Of a stretch of DNA of 64,000 nucleotides, positions 16,791 through 20,078 are shown in pieces (within the stretch, counting starts at the first letter, position 1; the number at the start of each line of letters is the position of its first letter). The position numbers were made by a program, and so were the translations under genes. The stretch is taken from the NCBI RefSeq assembly GCF_004134865.1, contig NZ_SDPO01000001.1, positions 248,001 to 312,000 on the forward strand, written 5' to 3'. The notes under the pieces were generated by a model. That model saw only the letters and a program-made list of their open reading frames with translations. It made no database searches and had not been told where the DNA came from. The DNA is from Agromyces fucosus. Lineage in GTDB: Bacteria; Actinomycetota; Actinomycetes; Actinomycetales; Microbacteriaceae.

Positions 16791-18080
16791 ATGGCAACGA
16801 CGAAAGCGACGACGGCTGCGAGCGAGGCGGAGAAGCCTGCTGCGAAGCGCGCGACCGCCGCGAAGTCGACCGCCGCGAAGACGACGGCGAAAGCCGCGGC
16901 CACCCCCGCGACGAAGACGCCGCGCGCAACTACCGCGAAGACCGCGACGAAGCCACGCGCGAAGGCGAAGGCCAAGAGCGACGACGATGAGGGCGAAGAG
17001 GTCGTCGACCTCGAGGTCGTCGAGGGCGCCGACGATTCGGCAGCCGACGGCGACGACGACGACACGAAGGCCGTCGCGGTCGAGCCGCATCCCACCGGCG
17101 CGCTCGTGCTGCGCGCCGTCGACGACGAAGACGAGGTCCCGGTCTACTCGAGCGCCATCACCGGCGCGACGGCCGACCCCGTCAAGGACTACCTGAAGCA
17201 GATCGGCAAGGTCGCGCTCCTGAACGCGGCCGAAGAAGTCGAGCTCGCGATGCGCATCGAGGCGGGCCTGTTCGCCGAAGAGAAGCTCTCGCACATGACC
17301 GACGCCGAGAAGCGCTCGCAGCTCGGCCGCGAACTCCAGTGGGTCGCGAAAGACGGCCAGCGCGCCAAGAGCCACCTGCTCGGCGCGAACCTCCGCCTCG
17401 TGGTCTCGCTCGCCAAGCGCTACACGGGTCGCGGCATGCAGTTCCTCGACCTCATCCAAGAGGGCAACCTGGGGCTCATCCGTGCGGTCGAGAAGTTCGA
17501 CTACACCAAGGGCTTCAAGTTCTCGACCTATGCGACGTGGTGGATCCGCCAGGCGATCACGCGCGCCATGGCCGACCAGGCTCGCACCATCCGCATCCCC
17601 GTGCACATGGTCGAGGTCATCAACAAGCTCGCCCGCGTGCAGCGCCAGATGCTCCAAGACCTGGGTCGCGAACCCACGCCCGAAGAGCTCAGCCGCGAAC
17701 TCGACATGACCCCCGAGAAGGTCATCGAGGTGCAGAAGTACGGCCGCGAGCCCATCTCGCTGCACACGCCGCTCGGTGAAGACGGCGACAGCGAGTTCGG
17801 TGACCTCATCGAGGACACCGAGGCGGTCGTGCCGGCCGACGCGGTGGGCTTCACGATGCTGCAGAAGCAGCTCGAGTCGCTCCTCGACTCGCTGAGCGAG
17901 CGCGAGGCGGGCGTCATCCGCATGCGCTTCGGCCTCGGCGACGGCATGCCGAAGACCCTCGACCAGATCGGCGACACCTTCGGCGTGACGCGCGAGCGCA
18001 TCCGCCAGATCGAGTCGAAGACGATGGCGAAGCTGCGTCACCCCTCGCGTTCGCAGTCGCTCCGCGACTACCTCGAGTAG
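16791..18080 (+). CDS. sigA: principal RNA polymerase sigma factor (sigma-70, group 1)
   Basis: A 429-residue housekeeping sigma factor preceded by AGGAGAGG. Residues 1–120 are a lysine/alanine/threonine-rich then acidic arm typical of actinobacterial SigA/HrdB. Region 1.2 follows ([16 protein letters not shown]), then regions 2.1–2.4 ([44 protein letters not shown]), region 3, and region 4.2 with its helix-turn-helix ([20 protein letters not shown]). The terminal [10 protein letters not shown] is typical of SigA. murT starts 8 bases after the stop, so the cell-wall pair is probably cotranscribed with it. Confidence 0.97.
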
Positions 18081-18087
18081 GCCGCCA

Positions 18088-19344
18088 GTGCGCTACGCCC
18101 CGGCGATCCTCGTCGGCAGGCTCACCCGATTCGCCGCCCGGCTGCGCAAGCCCGGCGGCGGGTCGGCTGTTCCGGGCCTCGTCGTCAACCGCATCGCACC
18201 GAAGTACCTGAAGCGCACCCTCTCCGGCTTCCCCGAGGGGCTCGTGGTCGTCTCGGGCTCGAGCGGCAAGTCGACGACGACGAAGATGCTCGTCGCGATC
18301 CTCCGTGCGCACGGCGTCGACGTCTTCACCAATCCGTCGACGGCGAACATCAGCCAGGGCCTCACCTCCGCCCTGCTCGAACAGGCCGACTGGCGCGGGC
18401 GCGTGCCAGGCGACGTCGCGGTGCTCGAGATGGACGAGGGCCACGGCGCCCTCGTCATGCAGGGCGTCGACGCCCGCGTCGTATGCCTCACCAACGTCAT
18501 GGTCGACCAGATCGACCGGTTCCACGACTCCGAGATGGTCGCCTCAATGCTCGGCCGCATCGCGGCACGGGCCGGCGAGTCGATCGTCGTGAACGCCGAC
18601 GACGCGTACCTCGAGCGCCTCGCCGAACGGGTGCGCCCCGAGGTCGCCGTGCACCGCTTCGGCGTCACCGAATCCGTGCTCGCGGCGTCGCCCCGCGGCC
18701 TCGGCTACACCGAGACGAGCGACACCCGGCTCTCGACCGGCACCGATGTGCTCGTCGAGGCGGTCGACGGCGCCGCTGCGGTGCTCGACGACGCCGGGGC
18801 ATCCGTCTCGATCGGCCTGCCGGCACGCGGCGTGCACTACGCCGTCGATGCGGCCGCCGCGTACGCCACCGCGAAGGCGGTGCTCGGCGACCGCTTCTCC
18901 AGCTCGACCGCGGCCGACGCGCTGAGCGCGATCCCCGCCGTGTTCGGGCGTGGCGAGCGCACCGTCGTTCGCGGCCACGACGTCGAGTTCGTGCTCGTGC
19001 AGAACCCTGCGAGCTACCAGCTCAACGTCGACAGCATCGCGCCGGGCACCGAGCAGATTCTCTTCGCGATCGGTTCCGATGTGCGCGATCCCTCCTATTT
19101 CTGGCCGACGGATGCCGGCTCCCTCGGGAGGGTCTCCATCGTGTCGGGTTCGAAGTCGGCCGAGGCCGCGCTCATGCTCGCCTACGACGGAGTCGAGATC
19201 GATCGCGTCGAGCCCGACCTCGGTACGGCCGTCGACGACTTCCTGGCGATGCCGGAACCCGCTTCCGGCGTCAAGACGATCGTCTTCACCGCCGACGCGA
19301 TGCGCCGCACTCGTGCCCACCTCGGACTCGCTGGAGCAGAATGA
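18088..19344 (+). CDS. murT: MurT-like Mur ligase family protein lacking the zinc ribbon
   Basis: A 418-residue Mur-ligase homologue starting at GTG. Residues 57–63 form the P-loop GSSGKST. VLEMDEGH and LTNVMVDQIDRFHD follow, as in MurT, and the C-terminus is a DUF1727-type domain. MurT activates the D-Glu alpha-carboxyl of lipid II with ATP, and GatD supplies ammonia. Staphylococcal and pneumococcal MurT carry a Cys4 zinc ribbon in the central domain; here the whole protein has a single cysteine (VVCLTN). The usual motif near the GatD interface (…DVSWxWD) appears as DPSYFWPTD. With the cysteine-free GatD, this suggests altered chemistry. Its stop overlaps gatD (ATGA). Confidence 0.82.
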   Translation: MRYAPAILVGRLTRFAARLRKPGGGSAVPGLVVNRIAPKYLKRTLSGFPEGLVVVSGSSGKSTTTKMLVAILRAHGVDVFTNPSTANISQGLTSALLEQADWRGRVPGDVAVLEMDEGHGALVMQGVDARVVCLTNVMVDQIDRFHDSEMVASMLGRIAARAGESIVVNADDAYLERLAERVRPEVAVHRFGVTESVLAASPRGLGYTETSDTRLSTGTDVLVEAVDGAAAVLDDAGASVSIGLPARGVHYAVDAAAAYATAKAVLGDRFSSSTAADALSAIPAVFGRGERTVVRGHDVEFVLVQNPASYQLNVDSIAPGTEQILFAIGSDVRDPSYFWPTDAGSLGRVSIVSGSKSAEAALMLAYDGVEIDRVEPDLGTAVDDFLAMPEPASGVKTIVFTADAMRRTRAHLGLAGAE

Positions 19345-20078
19345 CCCTCACGATCGTCTCGTTGCTTCCCCGGCTGCAGAACACGAACGGCGATGCCGAG
19401 AACGCCCGCGTGCTCTCGACGCGCGCGCGGTGGGCCGGCCTCGACGCCGAGGTCGTCGAGGTCGAGTCGGCCGCAGAGCTGCCGCCGCGCGTCGACGCGA
19501 TCGTGCTCGGGTCCGGGAGCGACTCGTCGCTCGACGAGAGCCGCGGGCTGCTCCTCACGATGCACGACGAGTTCCGCCGGTGGGGCACCGAGGGCGTGCC
19601 GATCCTCTCGATCGGCACCGGCTGGGAGCTGCTGAGCTGGGGCATCGAGCTCGCGAGCGGTCGGAGCGTCGAGGGCCTCGGCATCCTGCCCGGCCGCTCG
19701 GTGCCGCGCGCGAGTCGCGTGACCGGTGACGTCGTGGTGAAGAGTCCGCGCTTCGGAATGCTCGTCGGATTCGAGAACCACGCGCGTGACTACGTCGGCG
19801 CCGAGGCATCCCCGCTCGGCCGCATCCGTGCCGGTCACGGCAACGGCCGCGACTCCGGGCAGGAGGGCGCGGTCATGGGCGACGTCTACGGCACCCACCT
19901 GCACGGCCCGGTGCTCGCCAAGAACCCCGTGTTCGCCGATCGCCTGCTCGAGACCATGGCCTCCAGGGCCGGGCTCGAATACGTGGCGGGGGAGCAGGCG
20001 CAGGCCGTCGACGCCTACGCCTCGGCAGCTCGTGCCGCGCAGCTGGCTGCGGCGGGCGTCTCACTGCCCACGACCTGA
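19341..20078 (+). CDS. gatD: GatD-like class I amidotransferase homologue without catalytic cysteine
   Basis: A 245-residue GatD homologue, shown by LGSGSDSSLDE, VEGLGILPGRS, GMLVGFENHARD and THLHGPVLAKNP. The nucleophile loop, ICGGYQ in Staphylococcus aureus GatD (Cys94), reads IGTGWE here. The codon at 19614–19616 is GGC (Gly92), and the protein contains no cysteine anywhere. The triad histidine is retained at residue 188. Glutamine hydrolysis by the normal thioester route is therefore not possible, yet the fold and the partner interface appear intact. The ATG overlaps the murT stop. A terminator follows at 20167–20197. Confidence 0.85.
   Translation: MTLTIVSLLPRLQNTNGDAENARVLSTRARWAGLDAEVVEVESAAELPPRVDAIVLGSGSDSSLDESRGLLLTMHDEFRRWGTEGVPILSIGTGWELLSWGIELASGRSVEGLGILPGRSVPRASRVTGDVVVKSPRFGMLVGFENHARDYVGAEASPLGRIRAGHGNGRDSGQEGAVMGDVYGTHLHGPVLAKNPVFADRLLETMASRAGLEYVAGEQAQAVDAYASAARAAQLAAAGVSLPTT

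Follow-up and report, generated by a model that had tools for sequence, protein, structure and literature searches.

A MurT–GatD gene pair without the glutaminase cysteine in Agromyces fucosus, and its possible role in attaching the bridge of group B peptidoglycan

The window, by which we mean the whole stretch of 64,000 nucleotides of Agromyces fucosus DNA that was analysed, holds a murT-like and a gatD-like gene that overlap by ATGA and lie beside a gene for an rpoD-type sigma factor. The features of this locus that the text refers to are the following:

16791..18080, + strand: rpoD-type sigma factor; the same locus is occupied by most Cys-less pairs
18088..19344, + strand: murT-like gene, GTG start, 418 aa, MurT type I
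18502..18504, + strand: MurT Val139, where S. pneumoniae MurT has the gate residue Arg135
18838..18849, + strand: MurT Tyr251-Ala-Val-Asp254 (in HYAVD), which is NxxN in most Cys-containing MurTs
19087..19089, + strand: MurT Asp334, the equivalent of S. aureus D349, kept
19341..20078, + strand: gatD-like gene, ATG start, 245 aa, zero cysteine
19386..19388, + strand: GatD Asn16, at the position of the channel-plug Tyr (Tyr30 in S. pneumoniae, Tyr17 in S. aureus)
19614..19616, + strand: codon of GatD Gly92, at the position of the nucleophile Cys94 in S. aureus GatD
19902..19904, + strand: GatD His188, corresponding to S. aureus His189, kept

The MurT of the window shows the features of type I, namely the P-loop GSSGKSTTTK and the C-terminal motif GSDVRDPSYFWP. 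A first-pass annotation, made from the sequence alone, had described the C-terminal motif as altered, and so it is, with its Asp (Asp334) nonetheless retained. When compared with protein family profiles, MurT matched Mur_ligase_M at 50 bits, above the cut-off, and MurT_C at 21.5 bits against a cut-off of 25 (25.1 bits in a genome-wide profile search), and GatD matched GATase_3 at 63 bits. For both genes the best NCBIfam models are the subunits of isoglutaminyl synthase, with scores far under the equivalog cut-offs (82 bits against 800 for MurT and 114 against 450 for GatD); these are Staphylococcus models, and their cut-offs may be set too high for actinobacteria generally. In the predicted structures, with a mean pLDDT of 89.5 for MurT and 94.2 for GatD, the Mur-ligase fold and the GatD fold are both retained. 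The GatD model matches S. aureus GatD with a TM-score of 0.83 (6gs2) and, for chain A of 5n9m, with an rmsd of 1.8 and a TM-score of 0.82. By E-value, the best PDB match of the MurT model is S. aureus MurT (7q8e; E 1.3e-21, TM 0.50, rmsd 9.1), the low TM-score and large rmsd probably being due to domain orientation, and its TM-scores against S. pyogenes MurT and MurF are 0.64–0.67.

GatD contains no cysteine at all and MurT a single one (Cys133), just as the first-pass annotation had counted them. Its placement of the missing nucleophile also holds, as alignment with the PDB sequences puts IGTGWE of the window GatD on ICGGYQ of S. aureus GatD, with Gly92 for Cys94, and pairs His188 with the His of the triad. 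A search of the host genome with MurT_C, GatD and GATase_3 found no second MurT–GatD pair; a second GatD with an intact cysteine, together with normally amidated D-Glu, had been named beforehand as speaking against a changed function. There was one match to MurT_C and one match to the window GatD, and among the six matches to GATase_3 (E ≤ 1) the window GatD alone spans the domain (25–195 of 196 positions), with at most 94 positions covered by the others. Sequencing error or a pseudogene as the source of the missing cysteine was ruled out by the existence of a whole Cys-less clade and by the ratio of dN to dS, whose medians over 45 pairs from ten Agromyces sequences, the window included, are 0.211 for MurT and 0.26 for GatD; judged by these substitution rates, selection on both genes is purifying. 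Among the loci listed, the closest is that of Agromyces cerinus (MurT 96%).

Comparison across genomes indicates that the loss of the cysteine is a trait of a subfamily. Among 149 Microbacteriaceae genomes, 94 have the main Cys-less pair (three of them together with a Cys-containing pair, and two read in part, with MurT alone in G035 and only the end of GatD in G143), 14 have a Cys-containing pair only, 11 have only a second Cys-less kind, and 27 were matched by neither MurT profile at E ≤ 1e-18, leaving three that were matched with the pair sequence not read. The alignment-based genome searches score only some of the first-look candidates (for example 15 of 67), so absence is weaker evidence than presence and some absences may be misses. 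When pairs were compared by locus (154 in total, of which 110 belong to Microbacteriaceae and 44 to the order's other families), 94 proved Cys-less, all of them from Microbacteriaceae and four of them of the second kind; their cysteine position holds G, A, S, T, N or H. The GatDs read from the other families, 44 from 72 matched genomes, all keep the cysteine. Microbacteriaceae are known for group B walls, in which the diamino acid bridge begins at the alpha-carboxyl of D-Glu, and the first-pass annotation had expected cysteine loss to track this wall type; within the order the loss is indeed seen only in Microbacteriaceae (0 of 44 elsewhere), but inside the family the relation is not one-to-one.

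A further sample of at least 80 loci with organism names had been picked by the P-loop pattern of the Cys-less MurT (two of these are not MurT pairs, and Microbacterium is missing), so the 64 Cys-less among 64 readable GatDs of the loci listed are not an unbiased frequency. In the largest genus, which judging from draw frequency is probably Microbacterium, the pair was found in 14 of 79, with ten read that are all of type III and Cys-less, and 65 of 79 had no match to the MurT profile that elsewhere catches both Cys-containing and H-type pairs. The presence of a Cys-containing and a Cys-less pair together in three genomes (L062/L077, L072/L074 and L078/L083) argues for different jobs of the two. 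At three loci from small Microbacteriaceae genomes (L444, L445 and L446, with L447 partly read), GatD is only about 160–175 aa long and its triad residues are gone, with a GPVLAK stretch kept. A scan of viral contigs for MurT-like patterns gave no result.

The cysteine did not disappear alone. In S. pneumoniae, Tyr30 of GatD is reported to plug the passage, and one of the loop models has the gate closed by Arg135 of MurT (PMC6085368). Both residues are present in all 60 Cys-containing pairs that we compared, and among the 94 Cys-less pairs the plug Tyr occurs in none and the gate Arg in three, all of H-type. This joint loss of cysteine, plug and gate fits a loss of ammonia channelling; most Cys-less pairs form one clade, so the residue losses are mainly one event and not 94. 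The triad His (His189) is lost in 30 of the 94 Cys-less GatDs, among them all 14 of type III, and the Asp of MurT equivalent to D349 is kept in 90 of the 94 pairs. Six more MurT columns carry new residues common to types I–IV, at 80% or more in each type. In addition, position 254 of MurT is Asn in 60 of 60 Cys-containing pairs and Asp in 88 of 89 pairs of types I–V, and position 251 is Asn in 52 of 60 Cys-containing pairs and Tyr in 82 of 86 pairs of types I–IV. Two Asn residues including N267 are reported to line the adenine pocket of S. aureus MurT, where N267Y is inactive (PMC6113224). The site that reads NxxN or YxxD probably corresponds to this Asn pair, and with the motif changed it is possible that the pocket was rebuilt or that another nucleotide is used. 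An alignment of 39 MurTs from the main Cys-less clade shows no variation at the P-loop Lys61, at Glu114 (equivalent to the Mg-site E108 of S. aureus) or at Asp334.

The loss of the Cys4 zinc ribbon of MurT had been offered by the first-pass annotation as a companion signal, and we have dropped it from the account, as most Cys-containing relatives lack the ribbon too. In the ribbon region, no more than two Cys are present in 34 of the 44 Cys-containing MurTs from other families and three to six in the remaining 10, and the zinc finger is described as present in a subset of bacteria only (PMC6113224).

The MurT trees bring the main Cys-less sequences together in a single clade with 91 members, at a support of 0.951 among 151 MurTs (L114–L117 left out) and 0.919 among 192 MurTs (L114–L117 included). 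The Cys-containing pairs of Microbacteriaceae were considered as the ancestral form. In the 151-MurT tree, which has several weak nodes here, 13 of 16 group among other families; L072 has no resolved place, and L062 and L078 join the Cys-less clade as its sister in this tree but not in the 192-MurT tree. We distinguish MurT types I–V, the type of a locus being assigned by its nearest MurT. Type V comprises the Cys-less pairs L067, L088 and L075; the genomes of the first two (G111 and G145) also have a type I pair, so that L067 and L088 are second copies there.

Most types share the neighbourhood seen in the window. An rpoD-like frame lies in 72 of 80 of the P-loop-picked loci listed and, within flanks of about 1.5 kb, in 73 of 89 other loci of types I–V (24 of 29 for type I, 24 of 29 for II, 11 of 14 for III, 13 of 14 for IV and one of three for V), compared to none of the 16 Cys-containing loci of Microbacteriaceae and none of the 44 loci of other families. 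On a tree of rpoD, built from 67 of the 151 loci with an rpoD match after matches under 500 bits were dropped, types I–IV are interleaved: Mycetocola (IV) stands beside Pseudoclavibacter (II) with a support of 0.952, Plantibacter (I) beside Arenivirga (IV) with 0.885, and Labedella (III) beside Agromyces (I) with 0.879. This interleaving suggests repeated exchange of the pair at its locus, with the caution that rpoD is a slow marker, several nodes are weak and tree error is possible.

The second Cys-less kind differs from the main one and comes in two forms, found in nine (H-type) and two (g50 type) of the 149 Microbacteriaceae genomes. H-type pairs have more Cys in MurT, and their GatD has His at the cysteine position (Asn in one) and no triad His; the GatD of the g50 type has Gly at the cysteine position. 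All 11 genomes are without a main or a Cys-containing pair (hypergeometric P 9e-8, with the kinship of the genomes ignored), a mutual exclusion that looks like functional replacement. In the 192-MurT tree, the H and g50 types and eight distant Cys-less MurTs form one clade with a support of 0.984, separate from the main clade. Given two separate Cys-less clades with Cys-containing sequences beside both, the GatD cysteine was probably lost twice. A phylum-wide search with the second-kind profile gave 30 loci, and the GatDs read in 24 of them comprise 16 with the cysteine and eight without. These eight (L463–L470) combine a Cys-less GatD with a Cys-rich MurT and come from two families of the phylum that are distant from Microbacteriaceae, perhaps Coriobacteriia, with genomes of 1.6–2.5 Mb. 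We looked for the wall type of these two families, under that guess, and did not find it; if their walls belong to group A, the eight loci would speak in part against the interpretation of the first-pass annotation, which had named cysteine loss in many group A species with amidated walls as contrary evidence.

The wall chemistry of several genera can be set beside the MurT types. DAB is the diamino acid of Agromyces, Plantibacter, Leifsonia, Herbiconiux and Pseudoclavibacter, and we take it to be that of the window's host, as an Agromyces, as well; Curtobacterium has D-Orn, and Mycetocola, Okibacterium and Microcella have Lys. Among the loci listed, Curtobacterium is of type III, and Mycetocola, Okibacterium and Microcella are of type IV. 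In the open-licence literature, we found no bridge diamino acid for Mycetocola, Okibacterium, Microcella or Labedella. Published descriptions give DAB as the bridge diamino acid of Subtercola and L-DAB plus D-Orn for Agreia (both walls are classed as B2-gamma and have DAB in them, and the bridges differ), Orn for Frondihabitans (PMC7033078, Table 3), DAB for Cryobacterium, Glaciihabitans and Clavibacter (the last in PMC9190974), and Lys and Orn for Salinibacterium, with both DAB and ornithine in one Cryobacterium species (PMC12113805). Among the loci listed, type II was found in Subtercola (one locus) and Clavibacter (4 of 4), type III in Agreia (4 of 4) and Frondihabitans (one locus), and type I in 10 of 11 Cryobacterium, the remaining one being a MAG with type III. 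Three Glaciihabitans MAGs have types I, I and II. Salinibacterium, with types I, II and III, and the Cryobacterium species with both diamino acids speak against a clean rule linking type and bridge; DAB goes with types I and II alike. Where the chemistry was found in print, covering few genera, the MurT type tends to correspond to the bridge diamino acid, and the sharpest contrast is that of Agreia (III) with Subtercola (II), where both walls contain DAB and both bridge and type differ.

We infer that the window pair is probably an ATP-dependent ligase that joins the bridge diamino acid to lipid-linked D-Glu. The complex would no longer make ammonia; MurT would phosphorylate the alpha-carboxyl of D-Glu in the lipid-linked peptidoglycan precursor, and the activated carboxyl would then be joined to an amino group of a free diamino acid. 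In Agromyces this diamino acid would be D-diaminobutyrate, and the product would be the 2-to-4 bridge found in group B walls. MurT would need GatD, retained as its subunit, and the amino acid may enter or be held at the opened glutaminase side of GatD. The pair itself may have been exchanged in place. Published mutants offer a precedent for such a subunit: the C94G and C94S variants of S. aureus GatD are reported to lose glutamine-dependent amidation (PMC6113224, PMC3266927), MurT paired with GatD_C94G remains able to amidate at pH 8.5 when given free ammonia (PMC3266927), and GatD is described as required even when ammonia is supplied (PMC6085368), so a Cys-less GatD, dead as a glutaminase, can serve an added amine. 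The ligase reading partly supports the interpretation of the first-pass annotation, with its core strengthened and the zinc point removed. More tentatively, and with some doubt on our part, the Cys-less pairs taken jointly could be the missing group B bridge ligases, their glutaminase subunit having become an amino acid port. Types I and II would add D-Dab, type III D-Orn and type IV lysine, and the chemotype of a genus would be set by replacement of the pair in place beside rpoD; the H-type would have lost its cysteine separately and taken the same job, and the main clade would have rebuilt its nucleotide pocket, perhaps with another nucleotide.

Several observations stand against a bridge ligase. 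Since 27 of the 149 genomes and 65 of 79 of the probable Microbacterium have no MurT match, group B walls cannot all depend on this pair as their ligase. The bridges of Microbacterium begin with glycine, and if this applies here the rarity of the pair would fit. In addition, 14 of the 149 genomes have only a Cys-containing pair, the second Cys-less clade reaches two distant families, and, at what is probably the adenine pocket, Tyr and Asp have taken the place of the Asn motif. The joint loss of Tyr and Arg, like the single clade, mostly reflects one ancestral event.

Genomes without MurT seem to have another route, and this, together with the glycine that starts Microbacterium bridges, would suit a pair that adds some other small molecule, such as glycine or a polyamine, either to D-Glu at the carboxyl considered here or to a different carboxyl, the true bridge ligase being a different enzyme; we think this unlikely, as the match of type and diamino acid in Subtercola, Agreia and Frondihabitans, few genera as they are, would then be coincidence. 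A degenerating pseudo-enzyme complex, in which GatD is dead and MurT is non-catalytic with a structural or regulatory part to play, might be read from the GatDs of about 160–175 aa in some small genomes, from the loss of His189 in 30 of 94 Cys-less GatDs and from the replaced Asn motif. It strikes us as very doubtful, given the invariant Lys61, Glu114 and Asp334 of the 39 aligned clade MurTs, the purifying selection on both genes and an rpoD locus kept by most types. It also seems quite improbable that the pair still amidates D-Glu, with free ammonia or that of another glutaminase, and that the cysteine was lost by relaxation with the product unchanged. S. aureus MurT with GatD_C94G does just this at pH 8.5 (PMC3266927), and neither MurT Asp334 nor the overall fold has been lost, but once amidated, the carboxyl from which the bridge of group B walls starts would be blocked. 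The plug and gate went with the cysteine and six more MurT columns changed in types I–IV, the types, intermixed on the rpoD tree, tend to track the bridge chemistry, and Cys-containing and Cys-less pairs coexist in three genomes, all of which count against an unchanged product.

Compared to the MurT–GatD lipid II isoglutaminyl synthase of S. aureus and S. pneumoniae, the window pair is alike in its adjacent overlapping genes, both folds, His188 and MurT Asp334, and unlike in having no nucleophile Cys, channel Tyr, gate Arg or zinc ribbon, a changed Asn motif and low NCBIfam scores. The Asl-type D-aspartate ligases of enterococci and lactobacilli have an ATP-grasp fold unrelated in sequence to the window pair and act on the side chain at position 3; the proposed pair would likewise add a D-amino acid to the precursor as a bridge. 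The Mur ligases MurC–MurF use ATP-dependent acyl phosphate chemistry to join the amine of an amino acid, and the window MurT model matches the folds of MurF and MurE. Unlike these ligases, the window MurT keeps a GatD partner gene, has a shortened N-terminus of the kind described in print for MurT, and would act on a lipid-linked precursor.

With a candidate gene pair, the attachment of the group B bridge becomes directly testable. To our knowledge no enzyme has been assigned to the step that attaches the bridge residue to D-Glu, and a thin search of the open-licence literature found no such assignment. If the ligase reading is true, a chemotaxonomic marker that is decades old would be explained by one locus, and a glutaminase subunit would have been kept without its chemistry. 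The name "lipid II isoglutaminyl synthase" could then be wrong for the Cys-less pairs of much of Microbacteriaceae. Outside that family, all 12 loci read from family f6, which we guess to be Micrococcaceae (GC 0.54–0.71 in eight), have the cysteine; Micrococcus luteus carries glycine on D-Glu.
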